DNA of 64,000 nt from Mesorhizobium onobrychidis. Lineage in GTDB: Bacteria; Pseudomonadota; Alphaproteobacteria; Rhizobiales; Rhizobiaceae. Position numbers and translations under genes: made by a program. The stretch's first letter is position 1, and the number at the start of each line of letters is the position of its first letter. Where the stretch lies: contig NZ_CP062229.1 of NCBI RefSeq assembly GCF_024707545.1, forward strand, positions 6,429,501 to 6,493,500, given 5' to 3'. Below the pieces are notes generated by a model. The model saw only the letters and a list, made by a program, of their open reading frames with translations. It did no database searches and had not been told where the DNA came from. Below, one piece after another: positions 38,431 through 54,791 of the stretch.

Positions 38431-38665
38431 ATTCCCACTCGATTGTTTCATCCCACGATAACCGACTGATTTTGAATGGCAATTTAGTTTTACTCAACAC
38501 AGGTACCGGCAGAGGTGCCGTCAAAAATCTGGGCTTTTGATTTCATTGACGAATTTCCGCTTTTCGGGAAATCCATGCTTTCACGCACTATCGATAGGAT
38601 CGGTCGAGATCTTTTTTCCGCAGACTGGAACAGATCCTTTGGCAGCGGTGCGAAAAATACCGTCA
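38431..38665. mobile_element. Attachment-like site A: 3'-guaA-type core plus flanking arm
   Basis: ATTCCCACTCGATTGTT (38431-38447) read on the minus strand encodes T-I-E-W-E plus a stop (TGA, completed by the preceding base), which is the C-terminus of GMP synthase GuaA; the 3' end of guaA is a known integration target of Mesorhizobium integrative elements. No guaA gene is attached, so this is a core copy as in attL/attR or a tandem-insertion junction. The next about 230 bp are AT-rich and related to the flank of site B, and both carry TACCGTCA at nearly the same distance (38658-38665 here). Confidence 0.6.
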
Positions 38666-38938
38666 TTCTTTGACCGATCTACGTCGGCAGCAAAAGGCAT
38701 TCCGTTGCCATTTTGCGTTCCAATGCGCGGAAGCGCGTCCAGTGCCAGCCTCCCCTTGGCGCAGCGCTGTCGTTATGCAGGCTCAAATCGCAAACCTGGT
38801 TGGTCGAAGCCTCTTTCGGACAGATCGGGACCTCACCCGTCGTTCCGTGGTGAGCGTTGACGGGCAGCGTACGGCAGTTCACTTTTCGCTCGGCTTGCCC
38901 CATTCGAGCACCTTCACATCGGAATCCCATCGAATCCT
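38666..38938. other. Leader of nadQ, no gene seen
   Basis: About 270 bp between site A and the nadQ start, with no coding signature. It probably contains the nadQ promoter. Confidence 0.4.
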
Positions 38939-39904
38939 ATGCAAGACAAGACAACTCAGGCGACAACACAGGCAGCAAGGAACAACCGGGGCCAGGCCGT
39001 CAGTGCCGACCTGATCGCTGTTGTTATTGCCGTGACCAGCGGCGAACCACGCGTCTTGACCATCGAGCAGGCGGGAGCGTTGCCGTCCGGACCTTTTGAA
39101 CTCGACCATCGTTCCTTGCAGTCGGGTCTGAGGGCATGGGTAGAGCGGCACACCGGTCACCCGTTGGGCTATATCGAACAGCTCTATACCTTCGCCGACC
39201 GAGACCGGATCGGCAATGAGCGCGTGCAGATCTCGATCAGTTATCTCGGCCTGACGCGGGAAGAGGAGACCGAAAGGTCTCCAACGCATGGCTGGCGAGG
39301 TTGGTACGACTATTTTCCGTGGGAAGATCACCGTGCGGACGTGCCTCCGATCCTGCCCGATATCCTCATACCCCGACTTTTGACCTGGGCCAGCGAAGCC
39401 GAAGACCCGAACATGCGTCACGATCGCCGGCAGCGCGTGGCATATGCCTTCGGTCTCGATGATCGCGACTGGAACGAAGAACTTGTCCTGCAGCGATACG
39501 AACTGCTCTATGAAGCCGCGCTGGTGGCGGAGGCCACACGCGGCCGGGACAACGGCAGTCCGCTGGCCATTCCCGGTCGTCCGATGATTGCCGATCACCG
39601 CCGCATTCTGGCGACGGGGATCGCCAGGCTTCGAACCAAGATCAAATACCGCCCCGTCGTGTTCGAGCTGATGCCGCCGGCATTCACGCTGCTGCAATTG
39701 CAGCGCACCGTTGAAGCGCTCGCCGGCAGGCTCGTGCACAAGCAGAACTTCCGGCGTCTTATCGAACAGCAGGACCTCGTCGAGGAGACAGGCGAGACGA
39801 TGTCGGACACAGGCGGGCGCCCGGCGAAGCGCTTCCGTTTCCGCCAGACGGTACTGGCGGAACGCGCCGTCGCAGGGACGAAATTGCCGCTTTCACGCGC
39901 TTGA
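38939..39904 (+). CDS. nadQ: NadQ/NrtR-type NAD biosynthesis regulator (Nudix-like domain plus winged helix)
   Basis: A 321-residue protein. Residues 20-180 resemble a Nudix fold without a clear catalytic Nudix box (VSADLIAVVIAVTSGEPRVL, HPLGYIEQLYTFADRDR, ERVQISISYLGLTREE). Residues 220-310 form a winged helix ending in NFRRLIEQQDLVEETGE and GRPAKRFRFRQTVLAERA, as in NrtR/NadQ repressors. Such proteins sense an NAD-pathway metabolite and repress nadABC. It sits directly upstream of nadA with two operator-like repeats in the 64-bp gap, which supports nadQ over other names. The ATG lacks a strong ribosome binding site. Confidence 0.82.
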   Translation: MQDKTTQATTQAARNNRGQAVSADLIAVVIAVTSGEPRVLTIEQAGALPSGPFELDHRSLQSGLRAWVERHTGHPLGYIEQLYTFADRDRIGNERVQISISYLGLTREEETERSPTHGWRGWYDYFPWEDHRADVPPILPDILIPRLLTWASEAEDPNMRHDRRQRVAYAFGLDDRDWNEELVLQRYELLYEAALVAEATRGRDNGSPLAIPGRPMIADHRRILATGIARLRTKIKYRPVVFELMPPAFTLLQLQRTVEALAGRLVHKQNFRRLIEQQDLVEETGETMSDTGGRPAKRFRFRQTVLAERAVAGTKLPLSRA

Positions 39905-39959
39905 CATTCCTTATGCTCAAGTTAAGCATATGCCTCAGTTATACTCAATAGGAGCATAA
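39900..39959 (+). promoter_or_regulatory. nadA promoter with two operator-like inverted repeats
   Basis: CTTGACA overlaps the nadQ stop codon (39900-39906) as a strong -35, with a -10-like GCATAT about 20 bp on. Two inverted repeats follow in tandem: TATGCTCAAGTTAAGCATA (39912-39930), and TTATACTC...GAGCATAA (39939-39959). Both share TAT(G/A)CTCAA. The first covers the spacer and -10, the place expected for a repressor such as the adjacent NadQ. Confidence 0.65.
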
Positions 39960-39968
39960 GAACCAGGC

Positions 39969-40943
39969 ATGCTCAACGCCTCTACGCGCACGGCCGCGCT
40001 CTATGACCGCGTGCGGCGGGTCATCCCGCCCATCGAATGGCCGGCCTTCGCCAGCGATATCGATGCCATTCTCGATTTGAAGCAGCAGCGAAACGCGGTC
40101 ATCCTGGCGCATAATTATCAGACGCCGGAGATCTTCCACTGCGTCGCCGATATCGTCGGCGACAGCCTGGCGCTTGCCCGCAAGGCGATGTCGACCGAGG
40201 CGGATGTCATTGTGCTGGCTGGCGTGCATTTCATGGCCGAGACGGCGAAGCTGCTCAATCCGCAAAAGACGGTGCTCATCCCCGACTTGCACGCAGGCTG
40301 TTCGTTGGCGGACTCCATTACCGCCGAGGACATCCGCTTGCTGAGGCAACGCTATCCGGGCGTGCCCGTTGTCAGCTATGTCAACACGTCGGCCGAAGTG
40401 AAAGCTGAGTCCGACATCTGCTGTACCTCCGGCAATGCGAAGGCCGTCGTCGAGTCGCTGGGCGTTCCCCGGGTGATCATGCTGCCGGACGAGTATCTGG
40501 CCCAGAACATCGCCGCGCAGACCGACGTTGAGATCATCGCCTGGAAAGGGCATTGCGAGGTGCATGAGCGCTTTACGCCAGCCGACATCCGTGAGTTGCG
40601 CGAAAGCCATCCAGGTGTGACTGTGCTCGCGCATCCCGAATGCCCGCCCGACGTGGTGGCCGAGGCCGATTTTTCTGGTTCGACCGCTGCCATGTCCGAC
40701 TATGTCGAAAGGCAAAGACCGCCCCGTGTCGTGCTGATGACCGAGTGCTCGATGAGCGACAATGTCGCTCTCCAGCACCCCGAGGTCGAATTCATCCGGC
40801 CCTGCAATCTGTGCCCGCACATGAAGCGGATCACGCTCGCCAATATCCGCGCCGCGCTCGAGCAGAACCGCAATGTCGTAACCATCGAGCCCGGGATCGT
40901 CCGGCGCGCGCGGCTTGCCGTCGAGAGGATGCTTGCCGTATGA
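39969..40943 (+). CDS. nadA: Quinolinate synthase A
   Basis: A 324-residue [4Fe-4S] enzyme that condenses iminoaspartate and dihydroxyacetone phosphate to quinolinate. It has the characteristic [21 protein letters not shown] near residue 43, the Fe-S cysteine regions [28 protein letters not shown] and [15 protein letters not shown], and [13 protein letters not shown]. The ATG lies 9 bp after the second operator repeat. The 3' end overlaps nadB by 4 bp. Confidence 0.96.
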
Positions 40944-42481
40944 ACGTGGACGTCCAATGTCTCGACGGCCTGCCGGTCATCATCGGCGGCGGCATAGCCG
41001 GCCTGATGACCGCGCTGCATCTGGCACCTGAGCCGGTGCTTCTCCTGTCCACGACGCCATTAGGTGCTGACGCCTCGAGCACGTGGGCACAAGGCGGTCT
41101 GGCCGCCAGTCTCGGCGACGACGACGATCCGGCACTGCACCTGGCCGACACGCTCGCCGCCGGCGATGGGCTCTGCGACAGGGACATGGCGAGTCGCATC
41201 CTCAACGCGGCGCCAGGCGCGATCGAGCGGCTTGCGGGCTTCGGGGTCCGCTTCGACCGCACGCTAAATGGGACATTGCGCCTCGGACTGGAGGCCGCGC
41301 ACAGCCGACGGCGCATCGTTCATGCTGGCGGCGACGGCAGCGGGCGCGAGGTCATGCGTGCCCTGGTCGCGGCCGTACGCTCGACGCCCACAATAGAGGT
41401 CGTCGAGGGCTTCGAAGCGCGTCGGCTGGCTGTGGAGGACGGCACAATCGCCGGTGTTCTGGCGCGCGGTCCGACAGGCCCGGTGTTCTTTGCCACGGGA
41501 TGCGTCGTCCTCGCCACCGGCGGGATTGGCGGGCTGTTCCACGACACGACAAACCCGCTCGCCAGTTGCGGTCAGGGCCTGGCGCTTGCGGCCCGGGCGG
41601 GAGCTGTGCTTGCCGATCTGGAATTCATCCAGTTCCACCCGACAGCGCTTGACGGGTCGAACCGCCCCATGACGCTCATCAGTGAGGCGGTTCGCGGCGA
41701 AGGCGCCATAATCGTCGACGAGACAGGCCGACGCTTCCTCGACGGCGGGCTGGGGGCGGAGCTTGCGCCGCGCGACATCGTCGCGCGCGCCGTATGGAGG
41801 CATCTTGCGAACGGCCATCTGGTTTTCCTCGACGTACGCGAAAAGCCGGGCGCGACATTCGCCCAGCAGTTCCCGACGATCGCATCGGCCTGCAGTAAGG
41901 CCGGCATTGATCCGGCACGTGATCTCATTCCCATCCGGCCGGCGCAGCACTACCACATTGGCGGTGTCGCCGTGGATCTGGCGGGGCGCACATCGATTCC
42001 TGGACTTTGGGCCTGCGGCGAAGTCGCCTCGACCGGGTTGCACGGCGCCAACCGGCTTGCCAGCAACTCGCTAACCGAGGCCGTCGTCTGCGCGCGCTGG
42101 GTTGCCGAGAGTGTGGCCGCCTCGCCTGGCGGCGGTGGAAAGCCAACGATGGCATCTGACCTGCCCGCGCCGGATCCAGGGCCGGTGCGTCCTCTCCTGT
42201 CGCGTGCCCTCGGCGTCACGCGGGATGGCGAAGGTTTGAAAGAGGCTGCGCGCGCTTTGCTGCGGCTTGCGCAGCGCCATGACGCGGCGTCCGATTCCGC
42301 CGCCGTCGGGTTGATGATCACCATTGCCGCTTTGCTGCGCCGCGAAAGCCGCGGCGCTCATTTCCGGACCGACTTTCCGAATCATGCGACCGTCGTCCGC
42401 CGCTCCCAAATCACGCTCGACGCGGCTATAGCCGCAGCGCGGGAACTCGCATCCTCCCCAACGCTGGAAAGCGTGCTGTGA
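40940..42481 (+). CDS. nadB: L-aspartate oxidase
   Basis: A 513-residue FAD enzyme oxidising L-aspartate to iminoaspartate. Motifs: the dinucleotide-binding [34 protein letters not shown], the succinate dehydrogenase/fumarate reductase family signature [21 protein letters not shown], and [20 protein letters not shown] followed by [24 protein letters not shown] overlap with nadA and 1-bp overlap with nadC show a coupled nadABC operon. Confidence 0.95.
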
Positions 42482-43335
42482 TGAACCTCTCGCCACTTCC
42501 CGCAATCATGCTCGAGCCGCTGGTACGGGCAGCACTTCTCGAAGACCTTGGCAGAGCCGGTGACATCACCACTGATGCCATCGTGGCAAAGGAACACCAT
42601 GCGACGACCGTGCTTTCGGCACGCCAGCACGGGGTTGTCGCCGGGCTCGATCTGGCGATGCTCGCCTTCCGGCTGATCGACCAGACTGTCGAGATAAGGG
42701 TGGAGCGAGCGGACGGCAGCGAGGTCGAGCAAGGAGAGACCATTGCATCGGTGAGCGGCCCGGCGCGGGCGATTCTCACCGCGGAACGGACCGCGCTCAA
42801 TTTTCTCTGCCATCTGAGCGGCATTGCCACGGCGACGGCGTCGATCGTCGATGCGATACGCGGGCACAAGGCAAAAATCGTCTGCACTCGCAAGACGACA
42901 CCCGGCTTGCGGGCTGTCGAAAAATACGCCGTGCGCGCCGGTGGCGGCTCCAATCACCGCTTCGGCCTCGACGACGCGATCCTGATCAAGGACAACCACA
43001 TCGCCATCGCCGGCGGAATTCGCCCCGCAATAGAGCGCGCGCGAGGCAGCGTCGGCCATCTGGTCAAGATCGAAGTCGAGGTCGATACGCTGGCCCAGCT
43101 GGAAGAGGCCCTGGCCCTCGCCCCCGACGCCGTGCTGCTCGACAACATGTCGATCGACGAGTTGCACCAGGCTGTAGCATTGGTTGCGGGCCGATCGGTC
43201 ACCGAGGCGTCTGGCAGGATCACCGCCGCGATTGCGCCAGCCGTTGCCGCAACCGGTATCGATCTGATTTCCATCGGCTGGTTGACTCACAGCGCGCCGA
43301 TCCTCGATATCGGCCTCGACTACCGTGAGCCTTGA
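42481..43335 (+). CDS. nadC: Nicotinate-nucleotide pyrophosphorylase (quinolinate phosphoribosyltransferase)
   Basis: A 284-residue enzyme converting quinolinate and PRPP to nicotinate mononucleotide. Family segments: EDLGRAGDITTDAIV, ERTALNFLCHLSGIATAT, CTRKTTPGLRAVEKYAVRAG, NHRFGLDDAILIKDNHI, EVEVDTLAQLEEAL and LLDNMSIDELHQAV. I take the ATG at 42481, sharing its A with nadB's TGA; a GTG one codon earlier is also possible. It completes de novo NAD synthesis in this module. Confidence 0.96.
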   Translation: MNLSPLPAIMLEPLVRAALLEDLGRAGDITTDAIVAKEHHATTVLSARQHGVVAGLDLAMLAFRLIDQTVEIRVERADGSEVEQGETIASVSGPARAILTAERTALNFLCHLSGIATATASIVDAIRGHKAKIVCTRKTTPGLRAVEKYAVRAGGGSNHRFGLDDAILIKDNHIAIAGGIRPAIERARGSVGHLVKIEVEVDTLAQLEEALALAPDAVLLDNMSIDELHQAVALVAGRSVTEASGRITAAIAPAVAATGIDLISIGWLTHSAPILDIGLDYREP

Positions 43336-43401
43336 TCGTCGTACCCAGCTTCTCTCGACTGTGGTCCGCCATTTCAAAGGCGCCGCAACGCAAGGAACAG
43401 G

Positions 43402-44409
43402 ATGGAAATGCGCGCAGCAATTTCGGAAAAAACCATGCCTGAAGCTCAATCCTTCGACCACCACCGGATGTGGACCCTGGAAGAAGCCCAGGCGCTCCAC
43501 GACGTGCCTTTCAACGACCTGCTGTTTCAGGCGCAAACCGTTCACCGCCAGAATTTCGATCCCAACAAGGTCCAGCTCAGCCGGCTCCTCAGCATCAAGA
43601 CCGGCGGATGCCCGGAGGATTGCGGCTATTGCAGCCAGTCGGCGCATCACGAAAGCGGGTTGAAGGCGTCAAAGCTGATGGAGGTCATGCGCGTCATCGC
43701 CGAAGCGGCTAAGGCGCGTGACGCCGGCGCCACCCGCTATTGCATGGGTGCTGCCTGGCGAAACCCCAAGGCGCGCGACATGGATGCGGTAGTGGCGATG
43801 GTCGAGGGTGTGAAGGCGCTGGGCATGGAGACCTGCATGACGCTCGGCATGCTTGATCTTGAGCAAGCCGCTCGGCTGAAGCAGGCTGGCCTTGACTACT
43901 ACAACCACAACATCGATACGTCTGAACGCTACTATAGCGAGATCATCAGCACTCGCAGCTTTGCCGACCGGCTGGACACGCTCGCCAATGTCCGCGACAG
44001 CGGCATCAAGGTCTGCTGCGGCGGCATTGTCGGCATGGGTGAAGAGCCGGTGGACCGGATCGACATGCTGGTGACGCTGGCCAATCTGCCGGAGCATCCG
44101 GAAAGCGTTCCGATCAACATGCTGATCCCGATCGAGGGCACCCCGCTAGCCGAGGCCAGGCCGATCGAGCCGATTGAATTCGTGCGCGTGATCGCGCTGG
44201 CACGCATCATGATGCCGAAATCGCATGTCCGCCTTTCCGCCGGCCGCACCGCCATGACCGACGAGATGCAGGCGCTGTGCTTTTTTGCCGGCGCCAACTC
44301 GATCTTCGTCGGCGACACGCTGCTGACGGCGAACAATCCCGGCGAGGACAAGGATACGCTGCTATTCCGGCGTCTCGGCATCGAGCCGATGGAAATCGGC
44401 ACGCAATGA
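43402..44409 (+). CDS. bioB: Biotin synthase
   Basis: A 335-residue radical-SAM enzyme inserting sulfur into dethiobiotin. The radical-SAM cluster is [16 protein letters not shown]; further conserved parts are [39 protein letters not shown] and [16 protein letters not shown]. The start at 43402 has AAGGAACAGG upstream. The 66-bp gap after nadC contains no BioR box (TTATAGATAA-like), so the bio genes may be read through from nad. The 3' end overlaps bioF by 4 bp. Confidence 0.96.
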
Positions 44410-45545
44410 ACGAGGCACTTCTTGCCCGGTATGACGCATCCCTGCGTGGGCTGGCGCGCAAGGACCGGCTGCGGACTCTTGCGCCGCGCGCCGGGCTCGA
44501 CTTCTCGTCGAACGACTATCTAGGACTTGCCACCTCCAAAAGACTTGGCGAAGCGGTTGCGGCGGCGATTGCGCGGGGAACGCCGGTCGGTGCTACCGGG
44601 TCGCGGCTGTTGCGGGGCAATGCACCGGAGCACGAGCAACTGGAGGCGGACGCGGCGACATTCTTCGGCGCCGAGCGCGCACTGTTCTTCGGCAACGGCT
44701 ACATCGCCAACTTCGCTCTGCTGACCGCGCTGCCGCAGAAGGGCGACCTTTTGATCCTCGACCGGCTCGCCCATGCCAGCATGCATGAGGGTGCGCAGGC
44801 CGGACGCGCCGAGTTCGTGCTGGCCGCGCACAACGAAGTCGATGCTGTCGAGGACGCGATCAAGCGCTGGCGCGCCGAAGGCGGCGCGGGGCGCGTGTGG
44901 ATCGTGGTCGAAAGCCTGTACAGCATGGATGGCGACCGCGCGCCGATGGAGAGCCTGGTCGCACTTGCCGATCGGCACGAGGCATTCCTCGTCGTCGACG
45001 AGGCGCACGCCACCGGCGTCTGGGGACTGGACGGCCGGGGGCTAGCCGCCGCTTTCGAGGGCCGCGACAACATCGTCGCGCTCCACACATGCGGCAAAGC
45101 GCTAGGCGCGTCCGGCGCACTCGTCACCGGCCCGCGAACACTGTGCGACTATCTCGTCAACCGTTGCCGGCCATTCATCTACGCCACCGCGCCATCGCCG
45201 CTGATGGCAGTCGCGGTGCGTGAAGCGCTCGCCATGCTGTCCGACGAGCCGATGCGCCGCGTTCAGCTGCAGGAACGCGTTGCCTTCGCGGGCCGCCAAT
45301 TGGCCGAGCGCTGCGGCGTGATGCCGAGCGGCTCGCAGATCCAGCCATTTGTCATCGGCGATAACGGGCGCACCATGGCGGTGGCGGCAGGACTGCAGGC
45401 CCGCGGCTTCGACATACGCGGCATTCGTCCGCCGACCGTGCCCGAGGGCACATCGCGGCTGCGCATCTCACTGACGCTCAACGTCGACGAAGCTGACGTT
45501 TCCGCCATGGTCGAGGCGCTCGCCGAGGTGTTGGCCACGGCATGA
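44406..45545 (+). CDS. bioF: 8-amino-7-oxononanoate synthase
   Basis: A 379-residue PLP enzyme (alpha-oxoamine synthase family) joining pimeloyl thioester and alanine. Seen: [64 protein letters not shown] and the PLP-lysine region [14 protein letters not shown]. It overlaps bioB and bioD by 4 bp each. It is homologous to the hemA product in this window but has a distinct substrate role given its place between bioB and bioD. Confidence 0.94.
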
Positions 45546-46173
45546 CCAAGCGCATCGTCGTCACCGGAACAGACACCGGAATTGGCAAGACAGTATTTTC
45601 GGCTGGGCTCGCCGGCCTGCTCGACGGCTTCTACTGGAAGCCGGTGCAATCGGGCCTCGACGACGAGACCGACAGCGAGGTGGTTGCGCGGCTCGCCAGC
45701 CTGCCGCCAGGGCGCGTGCTGCCGGAAGTCTACCGCTTGAGCAAGCCGCTGTCGCCGCATCGTTCGGCCGAGATCGACGGCGTCGCAATCGAGGCGGCAA
45801 GGCTCTCGCTTCCAGTCTTGCCGGGTCCGCTCGTCATCGAAGGCGCCGGCGGCCTGATGGTGCCGCTCAACCGGCAGACAAAGTTCATCGACATATTCGC
45901 GCAGTGGCGGCTGCCGGTCATTCTGTGCGCCCGCACCGCGCTCGGCACGATCAACCACACCCTGCTGTCGATCGAGGCCCTGCGGGCCCGCTCAATCCCG
46001 ATCATCGGCCTCGCATTGGCGAGGAGGTGGCCGATACGCAAAGGACAATCGTGGAATTCAGCGGCGTGCCACAGCTCGGCAGGCTGCCGCTGCTCGATCC
46101 GCTGACGAACGAAACGCTGAGGGAAGCGATGGTTGCCGGCTTTGACCTTGCCTCGATTGCCGGAGGCGAATGA
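45542..46173 (+). pseudogene. bioD: Dethiobiotin synthetase, interrupted by a 4-nt deletion
   Basis: The first 157 or so codons are normal BioD: the P-loop [37 protein letters not shown] and [15 protein letters not shown], up to SIPIIGLA. The frame then shifts at 46015-46018, and the remainder ([33 protein letters not shown]) continues in another frame to the stop at 46173. Homologues read G-L-A-F-I-G-E here; the sequence fits loss of four bases between short direct ATT repeats. If real, dethiobiotin synthetase from this copy is inactive and would need another bioD. Confidence 0.85.
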
Positions 46174-47438
46174 TGTCGCAGTCTCAAGTCTGGCATCCGT
46201 TCACGCAGCACGCGCTTGAGCCGGCGATTCCAGAAATCGTGCTGACGGAGGGAGCCTATCTCCATAAAGCTGACGGCACGCGTATCCTGGACGCCATCTC
46301 TTCCTGGTGGGTCGTCACGCATGGCCACCGCCATCCCCGCATCATGAAGGCTATCGAGACGACCGCGTCGAGCCTCGACCAGATCATCTTTGCAGGCTTC
46401 ACGCATGAACCGGCCGAAGGCCTGGCCAGGGCGCTTGTCGGCCTCGCACCGCCCGGCCTCAACCGGGTGTTCTATTCCGACAGCGGCTCGACCTCGGTCG
46501 AAGTCGCGCTGAAGATGGCGCTTGGCTATTTTCGCAACATCGACGCGCCGCGCTCGCGCATCGTCGTCATGGAGCACAGCTACCATGGCGACACGATCGG
46601 CACGATGAGCGTCGGCGCCCGCGGCGTGTTTAACGCCGCCTACGAGCCCTTGCTGTTCGAGGTCGACACCATCCCCTTCCCGGCCGCCGGGCGCGAGCAG
46701 GAGACGCTGGATCGGTTCGAGGCCGTCTCCCGCGACCGGCACGCGGCCGCGCTGATCGTCGAGCCGCTCGTGCTCGGCGCCGGCGGCATGCTGATGTATC
46801 CGGCCTGGGTTGTCACCGAATTGAAGAAGATCGCCGAGACCTCCGGCACGCTGCTGATCGCCGATGAGGTGATGACCGGCTGGGGACGCACCGGAACCAT
46901 GTTCGCCTGCGAACAGGCATCGATCTCTCCTGATATCCTTTGCACCTCGAAAGGCTTGACCGGTGGCACCGTCCCGCTCGCGGCCACGCTCGCCACCGAT
47001 GCCATCTTCCAGGCCCACTATTCCGACGATCGGAAGAAGACTTTTTTCCACTCGAGTTCCTACACCGCCAATCCGATTGCCTGTGCGGCAGCACTTGCCA
47101 ATGTCGAGATCTGGCGCGACGAGCCGGTGACCGAGCGGATCGCGGCCTTGAGCGCGAAGCAGGCCGCCGGGCTTCAACGCTTTCGCCACAATCCCTACTT
47201 CACTGACAGCCGGACGACAGGCACCATCGCGGCCCTCGATCTGCGCACTGGCTCAGCCGGTTATCTGGCCGAGATCGGACCTAAACTGCGCGCATTCTTC
47301 CTCGAGCGCGGCCTGCTCGTGCGTCCGCTCGGCAATGTCCTGTATCTTCTGCCGCCCTATTGCATCACCAGCGACGAGTTGGACAGGCTCTATGACGCGA
47401 TCGAGGAGGCCGGCGAACGCTTCGGTTCGAGGCCATGA
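46173..47438 (+). CDS. bioA: Adenosylmethionine-8-amino-7-oxononanoate aminotransferase
   Basis: A 421-residue class III PLP aminotransferase making 7,8-diaminopelargonate. Motifs: [84 protein letters not shown] and the lysine region [21 protein letters not shown] lies 6 nt before the ATG at 46173; the preceding ATG at 46170 is possible. It overlaps bioZ by 4 bp. Confidence 0.95.
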
Positions 47439-48417
47439 GCAGATCGTCGCGCATTCTCGGGTTTGGCCATCATGCGCCGTCGCGCAAGGTCGAGAACCCG
47501 GAAATCGAAGATCGTCTCGGGCTTGAACCCGGCTGGATCGAGCGGCGGACCGGAATTCGTTCGCGCTTCTGGGCAGTGGACGAAGACACGCTGTCTGGTC
47601 TTGCCGCCTATGCCGGCGACATGGCGCTGGCGAACGCCGACGTCGACCGCAGGGACATCGGCCTGCTCCTGCTTGCCACCTCGACGCCCGACCACCTTCT
47701 GCCGCCAAGCGCGCCCCTGGTCGCACATCGGCTCGGACTGGGCCGCGCCGGTGCGATCGACCTGACCGGCGCCTGTGCCGGCTTCATCTATGCGCTTATG
47801 TTCGCGGACGGATTCACCCGGCTGCATGGCAAATCGGCCCTCGTCATTGCGCCAACATCCTCAGCCGTCGCATCAATCCGGCCGAACGCGCCAGCGCCGT
47901 ACTTTTTGCCGATGCCGCCGGCGCGGTGGTGATTGGTCCCGGCGACGACCCGGATCGCGGCATTCTCGGTGCTTCGGTGGATTCCGACGGCTCGCGCTAC
48001 GGGCTGATCCAAATACCCGCGGGCGGAAGCAACAAGCCGTTCCACGGCAACCTTGAGCTCGAGCAAACCCGGATGACGATCACCGACGGCCGTGAAGTGT
48101 TCAGCAAGGCCGTGGAGATGATGACTGCCTGCTCACAGGACGCACTCGCCGCAGCCCAAATGCGGCCACAGGACATCGATCGGTTTGTGCCGCATCAGGC
48201 CAATGCGCGCATTTTCGATGCGGTCGGGCGAAACCTCGGCATTGCGGATCACGCGATCGTCAAGATAATTGTCGAATACGGCAACTCTTCCGCCGCGACG
48301 ATTCCCCTGTCGCTGTCACTCGCCCATCGGACGGAGCCATTCCGACGTGGCGAGAAAATCCTTCTGGCGGCAGCGGGGGCGGGTCTCAGCGGCGGTGCTC
48401 TCGTCGTCGGAATTTAG
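47435..48417 (+). pseudogene. bioZ: BioZ (KAS III-like pimeloyl-precursor synthase), frameshifted
   Basis: A beta-ketoacyl-ACP synthase III homologue of the biotin-operon type. The first frame gives the N-terminal half with the active-site Cys in [19 protein letters not shown]. Near 47850 the frame breaks; the second half ([20 protein letters not shown], then [50 protein letters not shown]) lies in another frame and keeps the catalytic His and Asn. One missing G/C in GCGGCC restores a continuous protein of about 327 aa. Both halves are otherwise clean, so the event is recent or a sequence error. Confidence 0.85.
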
Positions 48418-48463
48418 CGCGGCGGCCGGCCGCGCGCACAATGGTGGATAGGACAAAGGATCA

Positions 48464-48917
48464 ATGCGAAAAATAGTGGCCGGCAAGCTGCACGGCATCC
48501 ACGTCACCGAAGCGAACCTCAACTACCATGGTTCGATAACGCTGGATCCTGACCACTGCGAGGCAGCCGGGATCCTGCCATGGAATTCGTGGAGATATGG
48601 AACAAGAACTCCGGTGCGCGGATTTCGACCTATGTCATTCTCGGCGAGCGCGGCTCACGATGCTGCATCCTCAACGGGGCGGCCGCCCGCACCTGCCAGC
48701 CCGGCGACCAGATCATTGTCTGCAACTCCATCTACCTGGATGAAGCGCAGATTACCTCGCTGAAGCCGCGGATCGTCACTTTCGACCAGGATAACCACAT
48801 ACGTGACCGCCTGAGCTACTCGGTCGATCTCGACGCACATGGCCGATATACAGTTTCTCCATCCTTGACGAGGCGAATGCCGCTTTGGCCATTCCTGCCC
48901 TGGTCTCCGGCGCGTGA
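48464..48917 (+). pseudogene. panD: Aspartate 1-decarboxylase precursor with two frameshifts
   Basis: PanD makes beta-alanine for pantothenate. The N-terminus [20 protein letters not shown] with the self-cleavage site Y-H-G-S-I-T-L-D is intact up to GILP; the frame then breaks at about 48579 (one base missing). It resumes as [20 protein letters not shown]...[12 protein letters not shown] second break (an extra TC at 48854-48859) separates the last part, SILDEANAALAIPALVSGA, which ends at the TGA 48915-48917. With both indels corrected the protein is about 150 aa, the family length. The start has AGGACAAAGGA upstream. Confidence 0.85.
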
Positions 48918-48982
48918 TCCGACGTATGCGCGAGCTTTCTCGGCTTGATCGGCCGTCGATTACCGCCACGACCCGAATGCGC

Positions 48983-49011
48983 TTGACAAGATAGCGCCGG
49001 CCCGTTCAATT
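48983..49011 (+). promoter_or_regulatory. Probable thiC promoter
   Basis: TTGACA (48983-48988), a 17-bp spacer and TCAATT (49006-49011) lie just ahead of the riboswitch aptamer, the expected layout for a sigma-70-type promoter making a leader of about 215 nt. Confidence 0.5.
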
Positions 49012-49021
49012 CCAAGCATTC

Positions 49022-52068
<3,047 letters not shown>

Positions 52069-52235
52069 GGTTGCCGCCGCCACGCTGGCCGAACTGCTTG
52101 CCGCACTCGACTATGACGGCGATTGGCTGGCGACGGCCGTCAACAGCGACGTCGTGCACAAAGCCAGGCGGGCGGAGTTCCAGTTGAGCGACGGCGATCG
52201 GATCGAAATCCTCTCGCCCATGCAGGGAGGCTAGC

Positions 52236-53009
52236 ATGTTCGAACTTTTCGGAACGTCGCTTCCGTCGCGGCTGCTTCTCGGCACCGCTCAATATCCTTC
52301 TCCAGCTATCCTTGCCGATGCGGTCAAGGCGTCCGGAACGTCGGTGGTGACCGTCTCCTTGCGGCGTGAAATGGCAGGCGGCAGGGCTGGCGAAAAATTC
52401 TGGTCGCTTATCCGCTCGCTCGGCATGAGAATCCTGCCCAACACTGCGGGCTGCCACTCCGTTAAGGAAGCGGTCACCACCGCAAAGATGGCGCGCGAAG
52501 TGTTTGGCACGAGCTGGATCAAGCTCGAAGTGATCGGCAACCACGACACGCTGCAACCGGACGTGTTCGGCCTGGTCGAAGCCGCCCGTATCCTGTGCGA
52601 GGACGGCTTTTCGGTATTCCCCTACACCACCGACGATCTCGTCGTCGCCGAGCGGTTGCTGGAAGCCGGATGCAGGGTGCTCATGCCCTGGTGCGCGCCG
52701 ATCGGTTCCGCTCTCGGACCGGTCAACATGACGGCGCTGCGCTCTATGCGCGGACATTTCCCTGGCGTCCCGCTGATCGTGGATGCAGGCCTCGGGCGAC
52801 CGTCGCACGCGGCAACGGTCCTGGAGCTAGGCTTTGATGCTGTGCTCCTGAACACGGCAGTCGCCAGGGCGGGCGATCCGGTCGGCATGGCGCGCGCATT
52901 CGGCAAGGCAGTCGATGCCGGCCGTGAAGCCTTCCTTTCCGGAATGCTCGAACCGCGCGACGTCGCCGTGCCATCGACGCCGACCATCGGCAGGGCAGTT
53001 TTTTCATGA
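52236..53009 (+). CDS. thiG: Thiazole synthase ThiG
   Basis: A 257-residue TIM-barrel enzyme building the thiazole phosphate from deoxyxylulose phosphate, the ThiS sulfur and the ThiO product. Family segments: [39 protein letters not shown], the Schiff-base lysine in [34 protein letters not shown] and [16 protein letters not shown]. 1-bp spacing after thiS and 4-bp overlap with thiE. Confidence 0.96.
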
Positions 53010-53611
53010 AGCTTGATCCCTTCTACCTGATCGTCGACAGCGCCGCCTGGATCGAGCGATTGGCGCCGCTCGGCGTCAGGCTGGTGCAGCTTCGCGTCAA
53101 GAACCTGAACGAGGCTGCGCTGCGCGCCGAAATCCGGAAGGCAAAGGCCTTGTGCGCCGAGCACCAGTGCCAGCTCATCGTCAACGACCATTGGGGCCCG
53201 GCAATCGAGGAAGGCTGCGAGTTCGTTCATCTCGGCCAGGAGGATTTGCAGGCTGCCGACCTCGCACAGATACGGGCAGCCGGCTTGAGGCTGGGGGTTA
53301 GCACGCATGATCATCTGGAATTGGAGACGGGTTTGGCCGCCAAGCCCGACTACATCGCACTCGGGCCGGTCTATGCCACCATTCTGAAGAAGATGAAATG
53401 GGCGCCGCAAGGGCTCGAACGTATCAGCGAGTGGAAACACCGGGTGGCGCCGATCCCATTGGTCGCCATTGGCGGCCTCAATCCCGACCGGCTCGACGGT
53501 GTCTTTGCGGCTGGTGCGGACAGCGCGGCGGTGGTGACCGACATCACGCTCAACGACGACCCCGAAGCGCGCACGCGGGAATGGATCGAAAAGACTGACC
53601 AATGGCGCTGA
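53006..53611 (+). CDS. thiE: Thiamine-phosphate synthase ThiE
   Basis: A 201-residue TIM-barrel enzyme that couples the pyrimidine diphosphate and thiazole phosphate to thiamine phosphate. Typical parts: [36 protein letters not shown], the [12 protein letters not shown] region, [30 protein letters not shown] and [20 protein letters not shown]. It overlaps thiD by 10 bp. An alternative TenI-like role is unlikely given the complete operon. Confidence 0.92.
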
Positions 53612-54399
53612 AGCGAGAACCGCATGTGCTTGTCGTTGGCGGGTCGGACCCTAGCGGCGGCGCCGGAATTGCCCGCGACGTCGAGACGATCTCGTCCCTT
53701 GGCGTGCGTACCTGCCTTGCTGTTACAGCGCTAACGGTTCAGACGCACGAAACCGTCGTGGAAATCCATCCTTTGCAGCCCGATCTTGTGGTCGATCAGA
53801 TGCGCGCTGCGCTGCAGGCAAACGAGGTGGCGGCCATCAAGATCGGCATGCTCGCAACGGCCGACATCATCATTGCCGTTGCCGCCGTGCTGCGCGAAAA
53901 TCCTCAGGTGCCAACAGTGCTCGACCCGGTACTGGCCTCCACGTCAGGCCGGGCGCTGCTGGAAACAGGCGCCATCGCCGTCATGAAGCGTGCTCTGATG
54001 CCGCTTTGCCGTCTCGTCACACCCAATTTCATCGAACTGGCGCTCCTTGCCGGCTCAGAACTGACGGGGGATGAGGACGGCGCAGTATTGCAAGGCCAGG
54101 AATTGCTGGTCGCCGACGCACAGGCCCTGCTGATCAAGGGCGGCCACGCATCGGGACCTCGATCAACCGATATTCTGTTGCGCTCCGATCAAGAACCAAT
54201 CCACTTCGACTCGCCACGCCTTGCCGCATCGATGCGCGGGACGGGTTGCATGCTGGCCAGCGCGATCGCGGCGCATCTGGCAAAGGCGAGCCCACTCGAA
54301 AACAGCGTGCGCAAAGGCAAGGTGTTTGTTTTCGAGAGGCTTCAGAAGCAAGCAGCCAATGACAGTGGCTTTTATGCCCAAGTTGAACTGCCCGTCTGA
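53602..54399 (+). CDS. thiD: Hydroxymethylpyrimidine/phosphomethylpyrimidine kinase ThiD
   Basis: A 265-residue ribokinase-fold kinase that phosphorylates HMP and HMP-P. Motifs: VLVVGGSDPSGGAGIARDVETIS near the start, LGVRTCLAVTALTVQ, IKIGMLATADIIIAVAAVL, VLDPVLASTSGRALLE, LLIKGGHASGP, and the catalytic MRGTGCMLASAIAAHLAKA. Last gene of the thiamine operon; site B follows 155 bp after its stop, with no strong hairpin between. Confidence 0.95.
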   Translation: MALKREPHVLVVGGSDPSGGAGIARDVETISSLGVRTCLAVTALTVQTHETVVEIHPLQPDLVVDQMRAALQANEVAAIKIGMLATADIIIAVAAVLRENPQVPTVLDPVLASTSGRALLETGAIAVMKRALMPLCRLVTPNFIELALLAGSELTGDEDGAVLQGQELLVADAQALLIKGGHASGPRSTDILLRSDQEPIHFDSPRLAASMRGTGCMLASAIAAHLAKASPLENSVRKGKVFVFERLQKQAANDSGFYAQVELPV

Positions 54400-54554
54400 G
54401 AGGGCGCCCGACTTTCGACACCTCAACCTTTGAATGGCTGTCATGACGCGAAGCAGACCCGCCGATTTGCACGCGGAGGAAATGGCCGCCGGCATCTGAC
54501 GTGCGCCAAAAACTGAAATCACAGGGGCTGCCGTTCTACGCTGCGGCCTCCCCT

Positions 54555-54791
54555 ATTCCCACTCGATTGTTCGCATCGGGCCTAATGAGTTGATTTGTCG
54601 TCGCGAAAAATTTTTCCGCCTTGAAAACTCCCGTCGCCCGAACCGTCAGATGCGCATGGCTTTTGAATTCAAAGAGGAATTTGATCGCTCCAGAAAATCT
54701 CCGCTTTCAGCGACTATCAATATCGATCGGTCCACTTTTCTCGAATCCACTGGCAACGCCGCACCGCCGACATAGCCGAAGACTACCGTCA
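54555..54791. mobile_element. Attachment-like site B: second 3'-guaA-type core plus flanking arm
   Basis: ATTCCCACTCGATTGTT (54555-54571) is identical to site A and in the same orientation, 16.1 kb away. The minus strand again reads T-I-E-W-E and a stop (TAG here). The following about 230 bp resemble the flank of site A, for example GGCTTTTGAATTCA, CGCTTTCAGCGACTATC and GATCGGTC, and end with TACCGTCA (54784-54791), 229 bp from the core against 227 bp in site A. Confidence 0.6.

Follow-up and report, generated by a model that had tools for sequence, protein, structure and literature searches.

A 64,000-nt stretch of the Mesorhizobium onobrychidis genome (the window; positions preceded by w are window coordinates, C1 and C2 are contigs of the genome, and G numbers are genomes of relatives) contains a 16.1-kb block of genes for NAD, biotin, pantothenate and thiamine synthesis, measured from core 1 to core 2, two short sequences that resemble the 3' end of guaA. 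The block lies between the right attachment site (attR) of an integrative and conjugative element (ICE) and native chromosome. It probably represents a remnant, of the kind known as a cis-mobilizable element (CIME), of an earlier guaA element, stacked together with a remnant of 3.25 kb between the ICE attR (core 3) and the native chromosome. The features on which this reading depends are as follows.

w21837–38440: native chromosome neighbouring guaA in relatives (nuo/antiporter genes and an open reading frame (ORF) with a CBS domain), collinear with G086 and G039
w38431–38447, minus strand: core 1, putative guaA 3'-end attachment core (reads TIEWE-stop; homology breakpoints)
w38448–38693: arm 1, attR-type, CCGTCA at w38518–38523 and w38660–38665 (motif positions, homology)
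w54555–54571, minus strand: core 2, identical to core 1 (sequence match; homology breakpoint)
w54572–54800: arm 2, CCGTCA at w54643–54648 and w54786–54791 (motif positions)
w57807–57823, minus strand: core 3, diverged guaA end (MIEWE-stop), putative guaA attR of the resident tripartite ICE (reading, breakpoint, tripartite junctions)
w57824–64000: arm 3 (CCGTCA at w57883 and w57895) and the beginning of ICE region alpha, 720 kb in total (motif, tripartite junctions)

The original prediction had pointed to two identical 17-bp copies in the same orientation that read like the end of GuaA on the minus strand, and this was confirmed. The sequence ATTCCCACTCGATTGTT occurs at w38431–38447 and w54555–54571 on the same strand, both copies read T-I-E-W-E-stop on the minus strand, and no further match with up to two mismatches was found in the window or in 100 shuffles of it. 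The entire 7.55-Mb genome contains exactly these two copies and two sites with two mismatches. One of the latter sites is the genuine guaA end (C1:1815444; guaA domains were located at 1813927–1814496 and 1814527–1815459); the other one (2135305), the translation of which continues ...TIEWELDPP, is probably a chance match. The third, diverged core at w57807–57823, reading M-I-E-W-E-stop, had been missed. Several other genomes of the genus (loci in G084, G082, G118 and G046) likewise contain two to four guaA-type cores, all pointing the same way; stacks at guaA thus look common in the genus.

Homology to relatives breaks at each of the three cores. On the left of core 1, w21837–38440 is collinear with G086 at 94.7% identity and w28190–38448 with G039 at 95.8%; both matches stop inside or at the end of core 1, and both relatives carry other DNA behind the same core. 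In G086, the guaA 3' end is located 4.6 kb beyond the point matching core 1, and the DNA upstream of guaA is 91.8–94.0% identical to that of M. onobrychidis in the five longest matches. Because of this collinearity and the proximity of guaA in G086, the DNA left of core 1 is identified as the native neighbour of guaA. The ORFs in the 4.6-kb gap were read by eye, without a family search, as an IS256-type transposase, an oxidoreductase and a TetR-type regulator. Three further genomes (G140, G014, G089) share the native tail only as far as w37864.

On the right of core 1, homology begins at w38422–38433 in nine out of 17 loci compared (seven genomes); two of the others match the left side and six match the core or short pieces only. 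Homology on the left of core 2 stops at w54570–54572 in seven out of eight loci (G082, two in G135, G021, two in G073, and G036), and in the eighth (G103) the match reaches w54474 only. At w54474/54475, the loci of G082, G135 (two) and G073 (both) are longer than the window by about 90–105 bp; either the window has lost a short segment or these loci have gained one. On the right of core 3, homology begins at w57802–57805 in two out of six loci (G014, G035); one of the remaining loci matches the core alone and three have no match. Judging from these breakpoints, all three cores behave as guaA attachment cores.

A second line of evidence is the hexamer CCGTCA on the right of the cores. Sorting by guaA motifs divided 64 distinct cores from the fetched loci into 35 guaA heads and 29 others, the latter including the three cores of the window. 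CCGTCA was found at +87 to +91 in 19 and at +229 to +233 in 14 of the 29 non-guaA cores; a given hexamer is expected by chance in a given window of five positions at about 0.12% of sites. The distances are +89 and +231 for core 1, +90 and +233 for core 2, and +78 and +90 for core 3; furthermore, arms 1 and 2 have 75 bp in common at 72% identity. The integrase encoded at guaA carries an arm-binding domain (PF13356), and CCGTCA at +89 and about +230 is a candidate arm site of this integrase, IntG. Together, breakpoints and motifs supported the proposal that the copies are attachment cores of the guaA type.

The left side of the 35 guaA heads shows a different motif set, namely CCGTCA near -134, -198, -253 and -268 and TGACGG at -176 in 19 heads, which fits the arm of a left attachment site (attL). 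These motifs are absent left of the window cores: nothing was found left of core 2, one CCGTCA overlaps the edge of core 1, and one motif is located at -149 left of core 3.

The element to the right of core 3 is assigned, from its junctions, to the tripartite symbiosis ICEs using guaA, tRNA-Met and tRNA-Phe, with core 3 as attR at guaA. An integrase ORF (1815598–1817034) stands behind guaA (1.815 Mb); 14 bases of the tRNA-Met 3' end are located at 1818790, 3.3 kb past guaA, and the chromosome beyond this point corresponds to the DNA directly behind tRNA-Met in G086. A second region of 48–53 kb extends from tRNA-Met at 1610002 to a 3' part of tRNA-Phe (1657799) or the full tRNA-Phe (1663166), with integrase matches at 1656483 and 1658178 near tRNA-Phe. 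Region alpha, 720 kb in length, reaches from core 3 to a tRNA-Phe 3' fragment at 7207484 and contains a NifH motif (7009639) and a VirB4-like Walker motif (6517300). The three types of junction, distributed over three separate regions, and the nif motif in alpha agree with the tripartite ICEs of Mesorhizobium (PMC5882170, PMC8627217, PMC9973854), in which the guaA end is an attachment site, as the original prediction had stated for some Mesorhizobium integrative elements. Unlike in these systems, the vitamin block and the 3.25-kb unit are located outside the three regions: the block is situated past the guaA attR, on the left side of core 3, and is hence no part of the ICE.

Integrase genes are present at guaA (IntG-type) and tRNA-Phe, and none was assigned to IntM. 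Because of the tripartite ICE, the distance between guaA and core 1 amounts to 4.65 Mb in contig coordinates or, should the contig be circular, to 2.67 Mb in the opposite direction. No tRNA was found in the window, in 24 of 30 fetched integrase loci or in 784 kb around the window; the tRNA junctions were found elsewhere. The extra tRNA-Phe 3' part (C1, about 1657799) and the full tRNA-Phe are separated by 5.4 kb that include an integrase match, which makes this a stack as well. In four genomes (G067, G077, G092, G140), the DNA downstream of guaA gave no match to the window longer than 100 bp; an IntG relative is located there in all of them except G092.

The original prediction regarded the vitamin genes as a cassette between attachment sites that had moved or could still move. 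The homology breaks support acquired DNA between attachment cores, but not a self-moving attL/attR cassette. None of the 41 genome matches to integrase family PF00589 falls within w38431–57823, and the search for IntG relatives returned only a match of 20% identity at an E-value of 0.88 in this interval; no integrase of its own, which an integrative and mobilizable element (IME) would have, was thus found in the block. As expected for a CIME, neither integrase nor conjugation genes were found in it; the latter were not searched for by family, the ORFs being accounted for by the vitamin genes. As to the attachment sites that a CIME retains at both ends, the cores flanking the block are identical, but attL-side motifs are absent left of core 2. 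The lack of a detectable integrase and of the attL-side motifs of guaA heads therefore argues for CIME-like debris.

The same two observations speak against a 16-kb cassette with attL and attR that excises and integrates as such using IntG supplied from elsewhere in the genome. The identical cores at both ends, the two CCGTCA motifs in the right arm of core 1 and the IntG-type integrase gene at guaA would all suit such a cassette; nevertheless, we consider it unlikely.

The CIME-like remnant most likely arose as follows. Elements would have arrived in succession at guaA, and older ones would have lost integrase and attL arm, presumably by deletion, leaving their cargo between attR-type cores. 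The vitamin block would then be unable to excise alone. An attL-like side was seen only at the guaA head; each of the three attR sites could therefore, in principle, serve IntG as the partner site, and recombination of the guaA attL with core 1 or 2 in place of core 3 is predicted to carry the block in cis with the ICE. More speculatively, the tripartite ICE might choose among three guaA attR sites, core 1 or 2 giving larger circles that include the stacked units; thiamine synthesis and other cargo would then form detachable end modules, in a process of accretion and mobilization with attL megabases away. We regard this extension as possible but doubtful.

The gene content between the copies had been predicted as nadQ-nadABC, bioBFDAZ, panD and riboswitch-thiCOSGED, and searches of Pfam and Rfam corroborated this list.

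w38939–39904, plus strand: nadQ-like regulator with NrtR winged helix (Pfam)
w39969–40943, plus strand: nadA (Pfam)
w40940–42481, plus strand: nadB (Pfam FAD-binding family, named by position)
w42478–43335, plus strand: nadC (Pfam)
w43402–44409, plus strand: bioB (Pfam)
w44406–45542, plus strand: bioF (Pfam)
w45542–46170, plus strand: bioD, frameshift near w46018 (Pfam for the first part; four of four relatives compared)
w46170–47438, plus strand: bioA (Pfam)
w47435–48417, plus strand: bioZ, frameshift near w47850 (Pfam for both parts, the first below cut-off; four of four relatives compared)
w48464–48914, plus strand: panD, two frame changes near w48586 and w48855 (Pfam; one relative with panD)
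w49015–49131, plus strand: thiamine pyrophosphate riboswitch (Rfam)
w49235–51070, plus strand: thiC, the only copy found in the genome (Pfam; genome search)
w51067–52068, plus strand: thiO (Pfam)
w52037–52234, plus strand: thiS (Pfam)
w52236–53009, plus strand: thiG (Pfam)
w53006–53611, plus strand: thiE (Pfam)
w53602–54399, plus strand: thiD (Pfam)
w54400–54554: flank from thiD to core 2, common to other species (homology comparison)

These genes are common, NadA being present in 118 of 146 genomes of the genus; their setting is the special part. We compared the nadA loci of ten relatives, about 40 kb each. Homology to the vitamin genes begins at w38764–38855, and outside these genes only G082 shares core 1 and arm 1 with the window. 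The loci contain nad, bio and thi genes in four cases, nad and bio in G001, nadQABC and thi in G082, and nadQABC alone in G007, G022 and G115; in G135, nad and bio are present, and part of thi lies on the opposite side. In the latter genome, the order core-arm-nadQABC-bioBFDAZ...thiD-core extends over 46 kb with the same polarity, the first core being one base short. The junction of thiD, flank and core is followed by different right arms in G082, G135 and G021. In G036, thiD is truncated and the guaA end follows at a distance of about 30 bp. Arm 1 also occurs in G050, in a locus where 102 kb encoding an IntG homologue are enclosed by guaA and a core of the arm 1 type. A clean empty site, with one core and nothing else, was not found.

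The separation of the nadQABC, bio and thi blocks from one another in relatives would be expected if the block had been placed beside the cores by homologous recombination between ICEs and not by integrase action, and recombination among tandem ICEs has been described for the genus (PMC8627217). Homology breaks at all three cores, however, and not at random places, which makes this origin improbable; homologous recombination may have reshuffled the block internally. Least credible is that the vitamin genes belong to the native chromosome here and that the cores are incidental: frequent as these genes are, the chromosome left of core 1 is present in G086 and G039 but is followed there by other DNA, homology in the ten nadA loci is confined as described, and a native tail joined to vitamin genes without cores was not seen among the relatives compared.

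Part of the block is decayed, which had escaped the original prediction. The genes bioD and bioZ change frame relative to all four relatives compared, and panD does so twice relative to the sole relative with a panD counterpart; no frame change was found in the nad and thi genes. As a control, 12 of 12 ORFs of the G086 flank matched the window in a single frame (nine in gene-strand and three in antisense frames), which makes a general sequencing fault unlikely, a local one being possible. Region alpha holds a second nadQABC-bioBFDAZ cluster (6633229–6642869) with 61.7–86.8% amino acid identity to the block, all nine genes being unbroken and in one frame each as compared to G144; no match to panD or thiC was found in the 13 kb of alpha searched. 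Redundancy with the bio genes of the ICE may have allowed bioD and bioZ to decay, while the unique thi operon was kept.

Several observations weigh against the interpretation as a CIME-like remnant with the proposed arm sites and decay. The core sample is biased, since many loci were retrieved because they resembled arm 1; of the nine non-guaA cores obtained solely through the core pattern, four have CCGTCA at +88/89 and three at +229 to +233. Shared descent of arms also adds to the recurrence of the motif. Whole-arm identity among the three window arms is 40–54%, with 42% for a shuffled control; being near the shuffled level, the arms need not be related to one another. Two loci of G073 carry the flank beside a core without detectable thiD. 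Finally, the nad genes in the block are duplicated and yet intact, so that redundancy explains only part of the decay, and panD is broken though none was found in the searched part of alpha. The thiD-core flank had also been considered as a deletion scar; its presence without thiD in G073 led us to reject this.

Vitamin genes on symbiosis ICEs (ICESyms), the guaA site, tripartite ICEs and CIME accretion are already known (PMC8090884, PMC7643969, PMC8627217, PMC9973854, PMC7563491). Genes bioBFDAZ, nadABC and thiCOSGED are located on ICEMcSym1192 (PMC8090884), and those for thiamine, biotin, nicotinate and pantothenate are conserved on Lotus ICESyms (PMC7643969). The gene set and the operon names are the same as in the block; here, in contrast, a separate, partly decayed copy is found in stacked attachment remnants, and the adjacent ICE has a nad-bio cluster of its own. 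CIMEs in tandem accretion with ICEs or IMEs (PMC7563491) likewise have cargo between attachment sites, no integrase or conjugation genes found, and an adjoining ICE at the same site, and their mobilization in cis has been proposed (PMC7563491). Unlike those, the block has vitamin cargo, stacked cores that look attR-type only, and as its neighbour a tripartite ICE with attL megabases away. In the open-licence literature searched, no description was found of a vitamin remnant stacked at a guaA attR outside a tripartite ICE.

Most nonsymbiotic mesorhizobia covered by PMC9973854 lack nad and bio genes, and ICESyms carry them. The locus suggests a route for vitamin genes onto or off symbiosis ICEs, by way of stacked guaA sites where elements of the same specificity leave or pick up cargo. 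The block adjoins a large nitrogen-fixation element docking at the same kind of site and is predicted to be able to travel with it; part of the question of nad and bio distribution thus becomes accessible to excision and mating experiments.

The genes carried by the 3.25-kb unit, which extends from core 2 to core 3, are given below (Pfam); no homologue of the unit with more than 40% identity was found at other guaA sites in 20 stretches searched.

w54886–57542: LysR (minus strand), short-chain dehydrogenase/reductase split over two frames (plus strand), F420_oxidored-family protein (plus strand)

Additionally, about 300 bp left of core 1 (w37934–38233) form a small dispersed repeat, copies of which with 83–90% identity occur in other genomes and at C2:9081–9383. 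Further left, w22528–36994 encodes on the minus strand a complex I-like cluster (NuoG, NuoD, NuoB, NuoN, NuoM and a chain-6 protein) interspersed with two subunits of the monovalent cation/H+ antiporter type, which constitutes the native guaA neighbourhood in the clade.

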